From assembly GCA_021741155.1 (NCBI GenBank), contig JAIOYP010000002.1, positions 1 through 43,550 of the forward strand: DNA of 43,550 nt. The letters run 5' to 3'. The DNA is from Flavobacteriales bacterium. Lineage in GTDB: Bacteria; Bacteroidota; Bacteroidia; UBA10329. The translations under genes were made by a program, and so were the position numbers. Of the stretch, positions 33,632 to 41,386 are shown piece after piece. Each line of letters begins with the position of its first letter. The stretch's first letter is position 1. The notes below the pieces were generated by a model. That model saw nothing but the letters and a program-made list of their open reading frames with translations, had not been told where the DNA came from and ran no database searches.

Positions 33632-33685
33632 TAGTTTCCTTCTGATTTCTCTCATCAGCCCTGTGCTTGGTCTAAATTCGCCTTG

Positions 33686-34696
33686 ATGATTGAGCAGAAC
33701 GTTTCTCTAAAACCATACAACACCTTTGGTCTGAATGCCCAAGCCAAACTCATGGCACGGGTTAATTCTGTTGCAGCGTTGCAGGAAGTGTTGGCAGATG
33801 TAAAGCTGAAGAAGGAAGAACGTTTCATTCTCGGTGGCGGCAGCAACCTTCTTCTCACCAAAGACATTGACGGACTCGTTATCAAGAACGAATTGGCAGG
33901 AATTGAGGTCGTAAACGAAACTCCCGAGCACTTCTTTATCAAATCTGGGGCTGGAGTTGTTTGGCACGAATTGGTGTTGCATTGCATTGCAAACGGCTAT
34001 GCCGGAATCGAGAATCTATCGCTCATACCAGGGAACGTTGGTGCTGCACCCATGCAGAATATCGGTGCTTATGGCGTGGAATTGAAAGACGTTTTCCATT
34101 CATTGGAAGCAGTGGAAATGGCAACCGGAAATGTGGAATCATTCTCCGCTTCTGATTGCGAATTTGGCTATCGCGAAAGCGTGTTCAAACGGAAACTGAA
34201 AGGTCAATTCATCATTTCATCCGTGACGTTGAAGCTAAACAAAAAGCCAAACTTCAATACTTCTTATGGAGCAATTGAAGAGGAATTGCAGCGACTTGGC
34301 ATTTCATCGCCAAGTATTAAAACGGTGAGTCAAGCGGTAATTAACATCCGCCAAAGCAAGTTGCCAGACCCAAAAGTGCTTGGAAATTCGGGCAGTTTCT
34401 TCAAGAATCCTGTAGTGCCGACTTCTCAATACGAAGAACTACAGGCTAAACATCCGAACATTCCCGGGTACCCAGCAGGAGACGAGACCAAGCTGGCCGC
34501 AGGCTGGCTTATTGAGCAATGCGGCTGGAAAGGCAAAGTGGTTGGCAATACGGGAAGCCACGCCAAACAGGCGTTGGTTCTGGTCAACTACGGAAATGCC
34601 ACTGGTGTTGAAATCTTCAAGCTATCCGAACAGATTATGAGTTCGGTTTACGATGCGTTCGGTGTAAGATTAGAGCGCGAGGTGAATGTTTATTAA
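33686..34696 (+). CDS. murB: UDP-N-acetylenolpyruvoylglucosamine reductase
   Basis: FAD/NADPH enzyme that reduces UDP-GlcNAc-enolpyruvate to UDP-MurNAc in peptidoglycan synthesis; cytoplasmic. The ATG at 33686 is preferred over the adjoining TTG; the product has 336 residues, close to E. coli MurB (type I). Motifs in order: YNTFGL, FAD-binding LGGGSNLLL, SLIPGNVGAAPMQNIGAYG, YRESVF, GNSGSFFKNP with the proton-donor Ser, AAGWLIEQCGWKG and the terminal LEREV Glu. The last 30 codons occur a second time at 35809-35898, beyond two lipoprotein-type genes on the other strand. So the present 3-prime end may have come with the inserted DNA. TAAATTCG at 33673 is a weak -7 candidate. Confidence 0.94.
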   Translation: MIEQNVSLKPYNTFGLNAQAKLMARVNSVAALQEVLADVKLKKEERFILGGGSNLLLTKDIDGLVIKNELAGIEVVNETPEHFFIKSGAGVVWHELVLHCIANGYAGIENLSLIPGNVGAAPMQNIGAYGVELKDVFHSLEAVEMATGNVESFSASDCEFGYRESVFKRKLKGQFIISSVTLKLNKKPNFNTSYGAIEEELQRLGISSPSIKTVSQAVINIRQSKLPDPKVLGNSGSFFKNPVVPTSQYEELQAKHPNIPGYPAGDETKLAAGWLIEQCGWKGKVVGNTGSHAKQALVLVNYGNATGVEIFKLSEQIMSSVYDAFGVRLEREVNVY

Positions 34697-34729
34697 TGAG
34701 ACCAATTAGAGAATTCTAAGCGGAAATAA

Positions 34730-34761
34730 GCAGGGCGTTTTTCAATTAAAAACACCCTTGC
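34730..34761. terminator. Stem-loop between murB and the convergent membrane-protein gene
   Basis: GCAGGGCGTTTTT (34730-34742) pairs with AAAAACACCCTTGC (34748-34761) around CAATT, with one mismatch and one bulge. It sits between the convergent murB and 34797-35033 genes, where a two-way terminator would be expected, but the T runs lie inside the stem, so the mechanism is not the standard one. Confidence 0.45.
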
Positions 34762-34796
34762 TTGCTTAAAAAATAATCGCTGGGATTGCTCTTTTA

Positions 34797-35033
34797 TCAA
34801 TCCGTAAACAACCTTTTATACTCCCTGAAATATTTTGGGGATAGCGGAGTATAGTGCGAGAAAAAACTTAGCCCTAGGTTTTTCCTTCTGACGCCCATGT
34901 TTATTACCATCAGAATCAGCGTACCTAATACGTACATTCCTAGATGTTTTTGTGGTTCCCATAATTTGAAAACAACGGCTGCCAAGAAGAGACCAAGAAT
35001 TACGAACCAAAAAATAAAGCTAATTCGGCTCAT
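34797..35033 (-). CDS. Small two-helix membrane protein
   Basis: Protein of 78 residues with two predicted membrane helices (FIFWFVILGLFLAAVVF and MYVLGTLILMVINMGV) and a basic, aromatic C-terminal tail (YTPLSPKYFREYKRLFTD). I recognise no family. It starts three bases after the stop of the 201-residue lipoprotein gene on the same strand, so the two form an operon. That pairing could mean export, immunity or anchoring of the lipoprotein, but this is inference. It lies inside the segment bounded by the two murB 3-prime ends and is likely accessory. Confidence 0.65.
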   Translation of the reverse strand: MSRISFIFWFVILGLFLAAVVFKLWEPQKHLGMYVLGTLILMVINMGVRRKNLGLSFFSHYTPLSPKYFREYKRLFTD

Positions 35034-35036
35034 AGT

Positions 35037-35642
35037 TTAATTCATTGATGCGTGAATTCCACAACCTATTCCAAGACCGGCCAAAACATAATGGGGTGCA
35101 GTGTATGCACCAACTAAAAATACTGCTCCCCACTCAGGGTCACTACTGACCGTGTACGCAAATTGTTCAACACAATTAGCAAACCTTCCAAACCAACCTC
35201 TTGGTTTTGCCCCAGAAAGGGTGTCAAAGTATGTTTCGGTAATCTTGATGGTGTCATTTTTTAGAATAGCCTTCATATACAGTTTACCGTTAAAGTAATA
35301 GTATGATGCTTCATAAATTTTGGGAGAGATTTCTATTACATCAACATAACCGTAAATTAAACTATCAATTCCCAAAACTGCAACGCGTTTTACGCGTGAA
35401 TTGGCTGAATTTAATGCTCCAAGAGTTCCTGCTACAACTTCTTTGTTGTACTTCACAGTAACATCGACATAACTTCTTATAGTAGTGTCCGTTAACGACT
35501 TTGAATCCGACTCCACATGAGTTTCATTTACACTCAAATATTCAACTGTCATAGAAGGGGTCGGGGTTTCCGTTTTAATTAAGTCGTCCTTCCCACAGCC
35601 AACGGCCATTAACATCATAATTCCAATTCCTAATTTTTTCAT
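35037..35642 (-). CDS. Accessory lipoprotein with hydrophobic Cys-containing C-terminus
   Basis: Lipoprotein of 201 residues. Signal MKKLGIGIMMLMAVGC (lipobox Cys16) is nearly identical, in DNA and protein, to that of the 38585 gene. Residues ~25-150 are beta-rich and threonine-rich and unrelated to that protein. The last ~50 residues are different in character: RFANCVEQFAYTVSSDPEWG then AVFLVGAYTAPHYVLAGLGIGCGIHA, a hydrophobic Gly/Ala stretch framed by two Cys. I recognise no family. The tail might be a membrane-active or structural segment. The next gene downstream encodes a two-helix membrane protein. The upstream region carries a C8 tract. It lies in the cassette between the two murB ends. 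Confidence 0.7.
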   Translation of the reverse strand: MKKLGIGIMMLMAVGCGKDDLIKTETPTPSMTVEYLSVNETHVESDSKSLTDTTIRSYVDVTVKYNKEVVAGTLGALNSANSRVKRVAVLGIDSLIYGYVDVIEISPKIYEASYYYFNGKLYMKAILKNDTIKITETYFDTLSGAKPRGWFGRFANCVEQFAYTVSSDPEWGAVFLVGAYTAPHYVLAGLGIGCGIHASMN

Positions 35643-35699
35643 GATTAATTTGTTTTTTAATGATTAGTGTTGGAAATGTTCAAATATTTCAGGGGGGGG
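35643..35699 (-). promoter_or_regulatory. Leader with C8 tract, shared with the 38585 gene
   Basis: Upstream of the ATG on the minus strand lies an AT-rich leader and a run of eight C (G run at 35692-35699), 49 bases before the start codon. The region aligns almost base for base with 38586-38644, where the run is nine C. AATATTTG next to the C run is one base from the -7 consensus, which would put the tract in the promoter spacer. The 35700-35808 stretch beyond it holds nothing else I can name. Confidence 0.55.
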
Positions 35700-35808
35700 T
35701 ATCGTCTTTTAAATGATGGTTGTATAATTTGTTAGATTTTTTCCTACTCAGAATTACAGTAGTGATTTGAAATTTCCTTTCCTGCAAGAGTTTCTTCATC
35801 ACCCATGT

Positions 35809-35898
35809 GTTGAAATCTTCAACCTATCCGAACAGATTATGCAGTCGGTTTACGATACATTTGGCGTTCAACTTGAAAGAGAAGTTAATGTTTATTGA
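35809..35898 (+). pseudogene. Second copy of the murB 3-prime end (30 codons)
   Basis: In frame these 90 bases encode VEIFNLSEQIMQSVYDTFGV and QLEREVNVY, then TGA: 25 of 29 residues match the C-terminus of MurB (34607-34696). DNA identity is 71 of 90, but uneven: one mismatch in the first 33 bases and 18 in the last 57, many silent. No start codon or upstream MurB sequence precedes it, so it is a remnant. Its end overlaps the ATG of the next gene (35888), which suggests that this gene once followed an intact murB directly. Confidence 0.85.
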
Positions 35899-36439
35899 AA
35901 GGTTCTTATTGGTTTTGATAGTTGCGCTTGGACTATCCATTTCTGCTTCGGCACAAGCTCCCGATTGCAAAAACGTTGGTAGCGCTTACGCTAAGAAAGT
36001 GTGCAGCGGCATTGAGAACAATCAGGCTTCTTTCATCAAGGATTTGATGCAGCGTAAAAGCTCTGGCAACAGCCTAGAGCAGGTATTGACTTGGACCAAG
36101 AAGTATTATGAGTGCTTTTATTGTGAGGAAGAGCCTGGATTCCGTGGTGGAACCATCCTCAGAAAAGTAGTGTATGAAGACGCACTAAACATCTGTTTCT
36201 TCTTTGTGTATGATGCCCGTGTGGATATGAACCAAGTGGAGCGCGATGGCCGTACCTTGATTGATTGGCTACAAGATGATACCGAAAAGGCATTTGATGC
36301 CGCTTTTGAAACGGAGAACGAGCAGGACAAGAAGTACCTGATTAAGCAGATTCAAACGGGTCAGAAGTACTTCAACATTTTCCGCAATAACGGGGCTAAA
36401 CTCCGTAGTGAGCTACGGGCGGGAGGTTCTAAATTTTAA
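35888..36439 (+). CDS. Small exported protein of unknown function
   Basis: The ATG at 35888 lies within the murB remnant and starts a clear signal peptide (MFIERFLLVLIVALGLSISASA, cleaved near residue 22). A longer frame from 35807 would begin inside the murB-derived sequence and hide it. The product has 183 residues. The mature part is mostly helical, with Cys pairs (YYECFYCEE at 74-81), and one stretch, ARVDMNQVERDGRTLIDWL (110-128), resembles an ankyrin-type repeat. No enzymatic motif is seen. In the ancestral order it probably overlapped murB, so it may belong to the cell-wall locus. Its 3-prime end overlaps the convergent 36429 gene by 11 bases. Confidence 0.7.
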   Translation: MFIERFLLVLIVALGLSISASAQAPDCKNVGSAYAKKVCSGIENNQASFIKDLMQRKSSGNSLEQVLTWTKKYYECFYCEEEPGFRGGTILRKVVYEDALNICFFFVYDARVDMNQVERDGRTLIDWLQDDTEKAFDAAFETENEQDKKYLIKQIQTGQKYFNIFRNNGAKLRSELRAGGSKF

Positions 36440-36917
36440 TAGTGTCTAACACCATTTTTGCTTCTAACAGCGATTTAGTTGGTGTCGAATGGAGTAGCTT
36501 CCCATTTTGGAAAGCAAGTATTGTCCAATCATAAATTGGATAGTCTATCGAATCTAAAAAATTTGACTTCTTATAAATTAAGCAATTAAACGAGATATGT
36601 GGCTGTAGAACTTCTCTCATTTTAGCATTAGTTGTGACCACATAACTGTTAAAAGAGGTTTCGGCCAAAATTTCGGATATTCCTTCTCCGAGTTTCGGAT
36701 GAATACAGGATGAACAGAAATAGTTATTCACCACAATTACTATGAAACTACTGTCCTCTATTCCCCATACTCTCAGTGTGTCTAAAATTTGTCCTGTTTG
36801 AGTTAAGTAGTCTCTTTGATACTCAAATACTGGTCGGGATTCATCGAATGATGGGGACGCACAAGCTAACAGCAGACAGATGCTAGGAGTAATAGCACAG
36901 ATCGTTTTGTTAATCAT
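36429..36917 (-). CDS. Lipoprotein with a CxxC motif, last gene of a three-gene operon
   Basis: The start at 36917 is preferred because MINKTICAITPSICLLLAC is a good lipoprotein signal (lipobox Cys19) and its ATG overlaps the stop of the upstream gene by eight bases; an in-frame ATG at 36941 is also possible. The product has 162 residues. A VIVVNNYFCSSCI segment carries a CxxC motif after a beta strand, similar to the active-site position in thioredoxin-like folds. Residues such as YDWTILAFQNGKLLHS would fit a later strand. I cannot name the family; a thiol-redox or metal-binding role is possible. It is transcribed with a beta-propeller lipoprotein gene. Confidence 0.65.
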   Translation of the reverse strand: MINKTICAITPSICLLLACASPSFDESRPVFEYQRDYLTQTGQILDTLRVWGIEDSSFIVIVVNNYFCSSCIHPKLGEGISEILAETSFNSYVVTTNAKMREVLQPHISFNCLIYKKSNFLDSIDYPIYDWTILAFQNGKLLHSTPTKSLLEAKMVLDTIKI

Positions 36918-38073
36918 GTGAATATTCGAACCTGTACGCATCGATTACAAGCTGATGCTTGTTTAATCCCCGAAACGAATTATTATTCACAAACAGAATC
37001 TGTTCTTCTGACGGAATTATCCACGTGAATGACGTATTCGGATTACTAACATATTCTTTAGCGAGTATACTGAAGTCCTTGCTCAATATTGCAAACATCC
37101 AACATTTTTCCCCTTTTGCTGGATTATTCACGTTCTTAATAGCCATCACAAACGTATTATTGGCATAATCATATTCTAACCGCGCGATTGCTGTGGTTTC
37201 ATCGATGTATTTACTGAACAAGTATTTGTCTCCGATTTTGGAAGCAGGGAAATCAACAAATTCTATTTCGTCAAAACCTGAAATTGAATACATTTCACTC
37301 TTCGCATTCTCATCAACTAGACTTTCACGTTTCACATGGAGGCCATACGGTTGCAGACTCACCAAATTTCCGGTAGAGTCAACACACCTAATTGGATATG
37401 CGTCAGCTCTATAATGATTCCAATAACCTTCTGGGAATTTCCCCAATCTTGAGTACGACTTATCCTTCAAATCAATGACCATTTCCATTGGATAACTTCC
37501 ATAAACAACGCGATTTAGAGAGTCCGCGATGGATAGGTCGGAAAGAGGCGAATGGACAACTACTTTGTTTCGGAACTTAAGAATTGGTGTCTTAAATACC
37601 GAAATGGTGCTAAAATGATGGCCGTCAAAAAAACCCTTTGCATCAATCGTATCGATGTGATTGTTGATGAGACTACATATGTAGAGAATTCCCGTTTCTG
37701 AATGCCGACTGTCAGATTCCATATCTAACAACAGCAAAGTGTCGTGTCCAAAATAGGTTACACGTTCAACGCTAATTTCAGTAAGTAATCGCATGATCTC
37801 AGGTCCCACTTTTCTTTTTGTCCATTCATTACCATGCAATACTTCAATGAAGTACAGATGCGAATCTAACTTGTTTAAGCAGGTAAATTCTGGTTCAATA
37901 CCAGACTGATTGATTCCTGAAATCAACCAGTCTGGAGGAGAACCAAACTCAGTAGGAATGTCAATTGTTAGTTCGGCTTTATCTGCAAGAGTAACTATAG
38001 TGTCATTCGAACAAGAAAAAAAACAGAAACAAACAATTTGAAAAAAGTATGGGAAACGAAAACGTACACTCAT
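36910..38073 (-). CDS. Beta-propeller-type lipoprotein (DUF4221/BF3164-like)
   Basis: Lipoprotein of 387 residues with signal FFQIVCFCFFSC (lipobox Cys21). The body consists of repeated four-strand blades, for instance RVTYFGHDTLLLLDMES, KFRNKVVVHSPLSDL and IGDKYLFSKYIDETTAIARLEYDYANNTF. This is the look of the six-bladed propeller lipoproteins of Bacteroidota annotated as DUF4221 or BF3164-like, but I cannot confirm the family by eye. The ATG overlaps the stop of the preceding lipoprotein gene by one base (TAATG), and its stop overlaps the next start, so expression is coupled. Substrate binding at the cell surface is a guess. Confidence 0.6.
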   Translation of the reverse strand: MSVRFRFPYFFQIVCFCFFSCSNDTIVTLADKAELTIDIPTEFGSPPDWLISGINQSGIEPEFTCLNKLDSHLYFIEVLHGNEWTKRKVGPEIMRLLTEISVERVTYFGHDTLLLLDMESDSRHSETGILYICSLINNHIDTIDAKGFFDGHHFSTISVFKTPILKFRNKVVVHSPLSDLSIADSLNRVVYGSYPMEMVIDLKDKSYSRLGKFPEGYWNHYRADAYPIRCVDSTGNLVSLQPYGLHVKRESLVDENAKSEMYSISGFDEIEFVDFPASKIGDKYLFSKYIDETTAIARLEYDYANNTFVMAIKNVNNPAKGEKCWMFAILSKDFSILAKEYVSNPNTSFTWIIPSEEQILFVNNNSFRGLNKHQLVIDAYRFEYSHD

Positions 38074-38585
38074 TAAAGAATTGGCAGTGTCACAATTACA
38101 TCCTTGATTTCAAGCAAATTTAACGGAATCGTAGCCTTATGGACGAGAACAGCTTTACCCTTCTGAGATGTCGCGTTTTCGGTATAATTACAAACCGACA
38201 TTGTCAAAACGTTGTCCTTTATATTCGTAACTATGTCTGGGAACTTAGCCAAGTCTGGGAAGAGAAGTTTCCAGTCTTCTTTCTTGAAGAAACCACTTTT
38301 GTCATTAGCATATTCGTTATTGAACAAGGTCCATAACTCAGCTGCACGTCCAGTCACGATTACTTCAACCAAACATGTCTCTGCTGGTTTTACGCAAGTG
38401 ACTCCATCACCATTATCATCACTCCAAGCAGGTCGCTCTGTCATTTTCCAAAGTTTCCTTCTGTCTAAATCTTGATTCACAGCCTTTGCGTTAATTGAAT
38501 ATTGATTCCTCTCGGTTTGGGCAAGTTCTTCCTTTCCACATCCAATAGCCATCAGCATCATAATTCCAATTCCTAATTTTTTCAT
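38073..38585 (-). CDS. Lipoprotein sharing leader and signal peptide with the 35642 gene
   Basis: Lipoprotein of 170 residues, signal MKKLGIGIMMLMAIGC (lipobox Cys16). From the upstream C tract to about codon 21 it matches the 35642 gene, including an identical 35-base run (38556-38590 versus 35613-35647). After that, the proteins have nothing in common: here the mature part has WSDDNGDGVTCVKPAETCLVE, FFKKEDWKLLFPDLAKFP and a final beta strand. I recognise no family. It is the first of three overlapping lipoprotein genes read leftward from one leader with a C9 tract. Confidence 0.7.
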   Translation of the reverse strand: MKKLGIGIMMLMAIGCGKEELAQTERNQYSINAKAVNQDLDRRKLWKMTERPAWSDDNGDGVTCVKPAETCLVEVIVTGRAAELWTLFNNEYANDKSGFFKKEDWKLLFPDLAKFPDIVTNIKDNVLTMSVCNYTENATSQKGKAVLVHKATIPLNLLEIKDVIVTLPIL

Positions 38586-38644
38586 GATTATTTTGTTTTT
38601 AAATGATTAGTGATAGCAATGTTAAAAATATTTCAGGGGGGGGG
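38586..38644 (-). promoter_or_regulatory. Leader with C9 tract for the three-gene lipoprotein operon
   Basis: A run of nine C (G run at 38636-38644) lies 50 bases before the ATG, within a leader that aligns to 35643-35699. Just beyond it, GTCATT-AA-AATGAC (around 38648-38661) forms an inverted repeat that is only partly kept in the other copy. Length change of the C tract could alter promoter spacing; only one length is visible in a single sequence. Confidence 0.5.
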
Positions 38645-39000
38645 TAGTGTCATTAAAATGACAATTGTTTATTCTGTTGAATGTGCTCTGGTCTATTCCT
38701 TTTTAGGAGAATACCAAATAAGCGATGACCACGCCCGTTCCTGAATTACTAGATTCTTCTCCTTGCTAAAATCGCTTCCGTAGCGGATTTGACCGTTCCT
38801 CCGCCCACTAAAATAAATAATAAAGCATTCCCTTGAGTCACTAAACCAAATGGCCGAGCCTTTGAAGCGGTAGCTAAACCCTCTCCACCTTTCGGTCCAA
38901 AACCTCCACCTAATTGTTCCATCGCTAAACCTTCCGTTAGCCTTGCCAAACCAAATGGTTGGAAGACCCAACCCAATTGTTCGTTCTCAGAACCGCAAGA
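38645..39000. other. Gene-free stretch with degenerate short repeats
   Basis: No convincing gene. CTAAACC/CCAAACC words, often followed by AAATGG or a C/T run, recur at 38841, 38874, 38897, 38924 and 38946 with irregular spacing of about 22-33 bases. AACCAAATGGTT (about 38949-38960) is close to the small AACC-N4-GGTT hairpin found in the 63-bp array that follows. Minus-strand frames here give only Gly/Leu-rich low-complexity peptides and look spurious. Confidence 0.5.
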
Positions 39001-39233
39001 TTGAGCGTTTAAATCTAGGTGTCGGGTCGCTCGACACAACGATTTAATCTTTAAACCATTGGGTTGAGACTTTAAATCCAGGTGTCGGGCGGGCTGACAG
39101 AACGATTCAATCCTTAAACCAAAAGGTTGGAACTATAAATCTAGGTGTCGGGTGGGTTGACACAACGATTCCGCCTTTCTGCCATCAGGTTGAGACTTTA
39201 AATCGTAGTGTCGAGTGAGCCGACACCTAGATT
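39001..39233. repeat. Tandem array of four 63-bp units, each with a hairpin; last unit inverted
   Basis: The landmark GTGTCG occurs at 39019, 39082, 39145 and 39208, exactly 63 bases apart. Each unit has TTGAGACTTTAAATC, a hairpin of the form AATCTAGGTGTC-loop-GACACAACGATT, and (units 1-3) a spacer with AACC-N4-GGTT. In unit 4 the hairpin is turned around: its right arm CGACACCTAGATT is the exact reverse complement of the left arm of unit 1, and its left arm is nearly that of the right arm. The array ends about 100 bases before the 39336 gene. Confidence 0.85.
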
Positions 39234-40183: not shown

Positions 40184-41386
40184 ATGAAGAAATCTTACTT
40201 AACAATCCTTTTATTCACATCCCTTTTTACAAGCGCAACCTTTGCGCAGGATATGCAGATTAAGGACGTTGCAACCGCAGCAGAAGCAAAACTCAAGGCA
40301 CATGAAGACTCTACCAAACGCTGGGATATTGGAGGTTCATTGGCCCTCAACTTTGGACAAACGTATTTGAAGAGTTGGGCTTCGGGCGGTCAGAACGCCA
40401 TCTCCATTGCATTTACAGGTTTGGTAAGGGCCAATTACCGCAAAGGCAGAGCTGCTTGGGACAACAACTTGGTGCTTGGTTTGGGTGGCATTGCGCTATT
40501 TCCACAAGAGAAATACAAAGACAACCTCAACAAATTTCCGTTCAGAAAGAACGTGGACAACCTTCAGTTGACATCAATTGGTAGTTACGAGTTAGATAAG
40601 CACGGAAAATGGTTTGCCTCTGGACTACTTGATTTCCGTTCTCAGTTGTTGGCGGGTCACGGAGAATATGCACATGCTGATACTGTGCTTAATTCAGACG
40701 GATCTATTGATGAAATCAATACAAATGCGAACAGAATCAACAAAAGAACCACGGTATCTCAATTTGCTGCACCAGCATATTTGACAGTTTCGGCAGGTAT
40801 CACCTACAAGCCAGTGAGTTGGGTTCAGTTCTATGTTTCTCCTGTAGCAGGAAAATTCACGTTCGTAAATCCTGCGGCAAACGTGTATGATGCAAAAACA
40901 GGAGGAAAAGGCGCCATGGCTTATGGTCTTAAAACACCTACAACTGTTTACCGTGCAGAGTTTGGTTGGTACTTGCGTGCAAACCTTGAAAAGGAAGTTT
41001 TTAAGAACATAATCGTGAAAACGCAGGTTGAATTGTTCGGTAATTACTTGGATAATGTGCATGTTGACAACATCGCAGCTACAACTGATGCGGTTGACGG
41101 TACTGTTTATTACGATCCTGCTACAAGAGATCAAAACACGATTGGCACAGATGCTTCTGGAGCAACCATTTACACGTATGATAATCGTACAAATGTGGAT
41201 GTGAACTGGCAGACTTGGATTACCCTCAAGATCAACAAATACCTACAGGCTTCTTTAGAATGGCAGATGTTGTATGACTATGATATTTCTGTTCCGAAGT
41301 ATCAGAATGATGGTATTACAACCTATTCATCTCGTGGAATTCAGTTCCGACAAGGTTTATCACTTGGCGTAGGTTATACGTTTTAA
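40184..41386 (+). CDS. DUF3078 outer-membrane protein
   Basis: Protein of 400 residues with signal peptide MKKSYLTILLFTSLFTSATFA (cleaved near Gln22). The region WDIGGSLALNFGQTYLKSWASGGQNAISI, with NYRKGRAAWDNNLVLGLGG and the following aromatic beta strands, is typical of the DUF3078 family of Bacteroidota outer-membrane beta-barrels. The C-terminus ends in a barrel strand with terminal Phe (GIQFRQGLSLGVGYTF), the usual outer-membrane assembly signal. The function of the family is unknown. The gene stands alone, with a -7 element 20 bases upstream and a palindromic intergenic element after it. Confidence 0.85.
   Translation: MKKSYLTILLFTSLFTSATFAQDMQIKDVATAAEAKLKAHEDSTKRWDIGGSLALNFGQTYLKSWASGGQNAISIAFTGLVRANYRKGRAAWDNNLVLGLGGIALFPQEKYKDNLNKFPFRKNVDNLQLTSIGSYELDKHGKWFASGLLDFRSQLLAGHGEYAHADTVLNSDGSIDEINTNANRINKRTTVSQFAAPAYLTVSAGITYKPVSWVQFYVSPVAGKFTFVNPAANVYDAKTGGKGAMAYGLKTPTTVYRAEFGWYLRANLEKEVFKNIIVKTQVELFGNYLDNVHVDNIAATTDAVDGTVYYDPATRDQNTIGTDASGATIYTYDNRTNVDVNWQTWITLKINKYLQASLEWQMLYDYDISVPKYQNDGITTYSSRGIQFRQGLSLGVGYTF

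Follow-up and report, generated by a model that had tools for sequence, protein, structure and literature searches.

A 1.1-kb cassette carrying a lipoprotein-like gene is inserted at the ancestral junction between murB and its downstream neighbor, a gene for a 183-aa protein, in a member of the Flavobacteriales, and a 3′ end of murB is present on each side of it. The working murB terminates in a mosaic end, here termed W1; a second end, termed W2, lies displaced directly upstream of the 183-aa gene, which it overlaps, and is the native one by its agreement with related genomes. The origin that we favor, with moderate confidence, is a one-sided (homology-facilitated illegitimate) recombination that brought in a murB tail together with the cassette, the old tail probably being kept because the 183-aa gene has its promoter and start region there.

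The window analyzed covers bases 1 to 43,550 of a contig (JAIOYP010000002.1; 177,738 bases in all) of Flavobacteriales bacterium GCA_021741155.1, a metagenome-derived genome of 3.76 Mb in 69 contigs, with an estimated completeness of 94.7% and an estimated contamination of 3.85%. This genome (G000) was compared with 8 other genomes of the same genus (G001 to G008) and with a class-wide set of 395 genomes, 369 of which yielded a match to the murB tail. The murB ends were compared over 109 loci, of which 108 are distinct, at least one genome being represented twice (L052 and L059 are both from G007).

The duplicated murB end and the DNA between the copies

The murB gene (UDP-N-acetylenolpyruvoylglucosamine reductase; positions 33683..34696, plus strand) is intact and matches the Pfam families MurB_C and FAD_binding_4. 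Its 3′ end, W1 (34605..34696, plus strand), closes with a TAA stop and recurs as W2 (35807..35898, plus strand); positions 34605-34694 and 35807-35896 align over 90 nt without gaps at 80% identity. Realignment confirmed the extent of duplication claimed by the sequence-only reading that preceded this analysis: over the last 29 codons (34607-34693 in W1 and 35809-35895 in W2), 25/29 residues and 69/87 bases are identical, or 71/90 bases if the stop codons (TAA in W1 and TGA in W2) are counted. The repeat is not a product of chance, because a murB search of the whole 3.76-Mb genome returned two places only, with the W2 remnant at an E value of 3.9e-8. The near-complete identity over 33 bases, followed by a drop, was likewise recovered (32/33 bases and then 37/54; Fisher p 0.001). 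In the 87-nt frame, positions 15 and 34-36 are mismatched, the other 14 mismatches lying between 49 and 78, and the longest run of identity between the two tails is 18 nt. W1 consists of ∼33 to 48 nt that resemble W2 except in two variable codons, followed by a diverged tail. The TGA of W2 (35896-35898) falls within the opening codons of the 183-aa gene (35888..36439, plus strand), an overlap that had been read from the letters; this gene has no Pfam match and is present in 9/9 genomes of the genus. A separate C-terminal murB fragment, of 106 aa, was seen in G220 (L151, 6301-6621), which has a whole murB on another contig.

The insert between W1 and W2 holds two minus-strand open reading frames (ORFs), of 78 aa (34797..35033) and 201 aa (35037..35642), that are 3 nt apart, in line with the two-gene unit on the opposite strand described earlier. 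The 201-aa product begins MKKLGIGIMMLMAVGCGK, which we take to be a lipoprotein signal. The G+C content is 0.373 in the cassette versus 0.464 in murB. Searches of the cassette proteins against Pfam, NCBIfam, PHROGs, and PADLOC gave only weak, chance-level matches, and profile and genome searches produced no relative of the 201-aa protein and no convincing one of the 78-aa protein. Two sets of candidates were rejected. Among the 395 class genomes, the only match of the 201-aa protein besides its own was in G038 (E 7.1e-4), inside a long ORF that is presumably an M1 peptidase, and the 78-aa ORF matched 9 other genomes, none of them in the genus, at E values of 2.9e-4 to 0.0094, with internal stops in 7 of the 9 matches. 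A terminator-like hairpin lies in the interval between murB and the cassette (34732..34758, minus strand), but it is a weak candidate because the scanned region contains three such sites compared with 1.8 ± 1.5 in shuffled sequences.

The empty site and the two murB ends

In 7 of the 8 congeners (G001 to G006 and G008), murB and the 183-aa homolog overlap, stop on start, in precisely the arrangement seen at W2; G007 has 105 nt between the two genes. Neither the cassette DNA nor the lipoprotein appeared in the search results for any of the 8, a count limited by the incompleteness of G001, G002, and G003 (70, 83, and 76% complete, respectively). Because the site is empty in 7 of the 8 congeners and the cassette was found in none of the 8, it is an insertion into the old junction between murB and the 183-aa gene. 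The sequence-only reading had predicted both an empty site in which murB overlaps the homolog of the 35888 gene and a former adjacency of the two genes, and the congeners bear out both. Beyond the genus, the same neighborhood was seen at four loci (L012, L014, L018, and L058), with a gap of 66 to 156 nt and a murB tail devoid of the −7 promoter box described below.

An assembly chimera of two strains might be suspected in a metagenome-derived genome of 69 contigs with 3.85% estimated contamination. This explanation appears very unlikely, given that the junctions share no long exact word (the longest identical run of the tails being the 18 nt mentioned above), that a leader block found in the cassette occurs again 2.9 kb away on the same contig, and that the flanking genes keep the order of the genus, according to a rough gene-order comparison supported for G001 by the sequence itself.

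Compared with the six closest relatives over the final 54 nt, W2 is identical at 42 to 50 positions and W1 at 34 to 41, and W2 is, on this sequence agreement, the native murB end. Among the 109 murB ends, the W1 tail is nearest to the genus (34-41/54, the best of the others reaching 34). The donor is thus likely to belong to the genus or its vicinity, although this comparison does not name it. The murB body upstream of the repeat looks native: its identity to the six relatives shows a mean excess of +0.036, with a minimum of −0.009, over 301 windows (54 nt each), whereas the last 54 nt score −0.114 in W1 and +0.062 in W2. The drop in W1 is extreme only against its own gene, since 54-nt windows in the murB genes of other genomes reach values as low as −0.079 to −0.156.

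The divergence between the two ends is also unequal at synonymous sites. W1 and W2 differ synonymously at 0/9 comparable codons in the first 11 and at 8/15 in the last 18 (Fisher p 0.0095); the murB body differs synonymously from that of each of the six close relatives at 50 to 57% of comparable codons. By this measure, the last 18 codons of W1 have diverged from the native end to the level found between species, and the contrast between the blocks suggests a recent common ancestor with W2 for the first part of W1 but not for the second. The 0/9 difference is suggestive and not decisive, because G004 differs from W1 at only 1/9 codons in the first block.

These patterns bear on a local duplication, in which the tail would have been copied along with the insertion, W2 then being constrained as a promoter and W1 drifting as plain coding sequence. 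Extra constraint on W2 would indeed make W1 look fast, and sister placement of W1 and W2 is not rejected when a tree is built from the 54-nt tails (AU test, p 0.097). However, drift in W1 should have affected the synonymous codons of the first block too, contrary to the 0/9 versus 8/15 split, and the branch lengths in the same tree are 0.40 for W1 and 0.018 for W2. We regard such a duplication as improbable; in its simple form it is a misfit, because the last 18 codons of W1 differ from the native end by as much as those of another species would, and the earlier rejection of simple duplication thus stands. The claim that the ends are alleles of different lineages held in part: the mosaic structure of W1 and the between-species distance of its last 18 codons agree with it, but the separate clades expected in a tree of the two ends are not formally established on 54 nt, where W1 grouped with G002 at 84/91, which is not a strong branch, and sisterhood with W2 was not rejected.

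A candidate promoter inside the native murB tail

The −7 box of flavobacterial sigma-A promoters is described as TANNTTTG or TAHHTTTG (PMC6847099, PMC9723704), and for Flavobacterium johnsoniae, PMC6847099 describes this form of the box together with leaders that average 33 nt. W2 contains TACATTTG (35856..35863, plus strand), a candidate −7 box located 32 nt before the ATG at 35888. The TAHHTTTG pattern occupies the same place in 7/7 relatives with overlapping genes and is missing from W1. The leader implied by the W2 box is ∼20 nt, compared with the 33-nt average (PMC6847099). No −33 box was evident upstream of the 183-aa gene.

The last 18 codons of murB show the lowest synonymous divergence among the six relatives of all 320 windows (0.358; mean, 0.570; standard deviation, 0.063). 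Over the 108 distinct loci, the box occurs in the last 54 nt of murB in 7/7 loci with the overlapping arrangement (all from one genus and hence not independent), in 1/5 loci with the 183-aa gene 66 to 156 nt away, and in 8/96 loci without that gene within 300 nt. At the box codon, phenylalanine is encoded by TTT in 12/12 loci next to the 183-aa gene, which by itself proves little because TTT also accounts for 64/89 phenylalanine codons at loci without the gene; in the murB bodies of the genus, the proportion is 33/101. In the window, TANNTTTG occurs 17 times versus 34.6 expected, a depletion of the kind expected for a promoter box that is avoided elsewhere, and 7 of the 17 sites precede the ATG of a long ORF (at least 100 aa) by 12 to 49 nt.

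We infer from these patterns a second role for the native murB tail, namely, to supply the 183-aa gene with its putative promoter and start region, a role that W2 would have kept and of which W1 would be free. W2 was thus probably retained because the native tail holds the putative promoter of the 183-aa gene. This promoter reading is new relative to the sequence-only reading, whose account of recombination is largely supported and whose comparison with integrative elements is not.

Origin of the cassette and comparison with known systems

Because W2 is native, W1 is mosaic, and the rest of murB looks native, a murB tail of another kind probably arrived with the cassette on the incoming DNA. 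In the favored one-sided recombination, the ancestor would have had murB overlapping the 183-aa gene, with the promoter and translation start of the latter in the last ∼18 murB codons. The incoming fragment would have carried a murB 3′ end followed by the convergent lipoprotein cassette, its probable source being a different species of the genus or a near relative. On one side, homologous recombination would have taken place within the conserved murB tail, and on the other, the fragment would have been joined, at a place with no clear homology, just upstream of the old tail. murB would thereby have remained whole with the new tail W1, and W2 would have been left before the 183-aa gene, still providing its promoter and start. 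A homologous anchor is present at one end, namely, the murB tail with 32/33 identical nt before the mosaic part; the join at 35806/35807 has no clear word in common with the native sequence before it, the native flank being the one compared. No donor sequence was found in the genus, class-genome, and 109 murB-end comparisons, nor was the previously proposed donor-type strain, in which the lipoprotein genes would come after murB. Homology-facilitated illegitimate recombination has been documented but is uncommon (PMC3240628).

The same architecture could have been left by an integrase-dependent element, now lacking its integrase or served in trans, if a circle of ∼1.2 kb with a recoded murB tail was inserted at the core GTGTTGAAATCTTCAA...GATTATG, pushing the old tail aside. 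The short near-identical core, the regenerated target gene, and the displaced native fragment all fit such an event, as does the position of the switch from native to different sequence within the repeated block, and a comparable scar pattern is described for islands in tRNA genes (PMC4383910). Conversely, the insert contains only two minus-strand ORFs of at least 60 aa, neither of them integrase-like, and none of the 7 matches to PF00589 (tyrosine recombinase) in the genome is on the 178-kb contig, so that the absence of an integrase remarked on earlier holds for the insert and the contig alike. Nor does the site appear to be a recurrent target: among the 369 genomes, two murB-tail hits occur only in G000, G220, and G243, the pairs in G220 and G243 being on separate contigs and not end duplications, and a second end near murB is absent from the 109 loci, apart from a chance-level hit in L103. 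The insert has no match to phage, plasmid, or viral contigs, and none of the papers listed on murB, integrative elements, and attachment sites describes an element in murB, to judge by titles and the beginnings of abstracts. The likeness to integrative elements put forward earlier is therefore apt as regards the regenerated target and the displaced native fragment but not as regards an integrase or recurrence at murB elsewhere; only the architecture suggests a site-specific element, and we consider this origin unlikely.

A second cassette (36429..38585, minus strand) is located in the interval that separates the 183-aa gene from a DUF3078 gene at 40184 and comprises ORFs at 36429-36941, 36910-38073, and 38073-38585. 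The last of these ORFs has the same leader as the 201-aa ORF. In the latter, the leader block (35584..35733, minus strand) includes the signal peptide start, the 5′ region, and a run of eight C residues on the coding strand, and it is 84% like 38527-38678; the C runs of the two leaders, of 8 and 9, are the only G/C runs of at least 8 in the window. The two lipoprotein genes thus have leaders that are 84% alike and different bodies, and the C run is possibly a promoter tract of variable length. Across the genome, the C-run leader pattern was found only in these two copies and in one more with 3 mismatches. The 387-aa ORF of the second cassette was matched in 3/345 genomes, including its own, at 23 to 24% identity.

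At the place of the second cassette, G004, G006, and G008 have a long convergent gene following the 183-aa gene, identified as DUF3604 in G004, and a remnant of its 3′ end (38702..38788, minus strand) is left in the window, with 28 codons of which 27/28 residues are like those of G004. Next to this cassette, the 183-aa gene is less relative-like at its 3′ end (36250-36439) than in the rest (z −3.9), from which nothing is concluded because the synonymous rate of this end is normal (0.57 versus 0.53), and a search to the right of the second cassette for an old end of the 183-aa gene performed no better than shuffled sequences. The two cassettes, which flank the 183-aa gene, might belong to a family of small lipoprotein cassettes that lack an integrase, combine a constant leader (signal peptide, 5′ region, and 8 or 9 C residues) with variable bodies, and move between gene ends in this group by means of recoded tails that keep their targets whole, but we hold this to be doubtful at best. 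Farther along, 38991-39225 holds three copies of a repeat with 63-nt spacing and inverted parts (GTGTCGGGT...CGACAC).

The locus shows a route by which the end of a housekeeping gene can be rebuilt when DNA is inserted alongside it. Both ends may need to be kept if a single stretch both completes the coding sequence of one gene and acts as promoter for the gene that follows. At overlapping genes of this kind, insertions would survive only by copying the common stretch, and duplicated gene ends are therefore predicted to mark hidden promoters.

The candidate promoter matches those of flavobacterial sigma-A in box sequence, and its leader length is plausible; it differs in that the box lies inside the coding sequence of the upstream gene, no −33 box is seen, and its description comes from the DNA sequence (PMC6847099, PMC9723704). 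Genomic islands in tRNA and tmRNA genes, as described in PMC4383910, likewise regenerate their target and leave a working gene on one side and a displaced native fragment on the other. Unlike those islands, the present locus has no integrase, measures 1.1 kb, targets a protein-coding gene, and is the one such case at murB that was found. The displaced 3′ ends of Vibrio type VI effector loci, for which the same recombination logic has been proposed (PMC5361080), provide a further parallel: with a conserved anchor, a new 3′ part and a downstream gene come in, and the old pair is pushed behind them. In the event deduced here from one genome, by contrast, the anchor is a cell-wall housekeeping gene that has to stay whole rather than an effector gene, and the old end probably carries a promoter.
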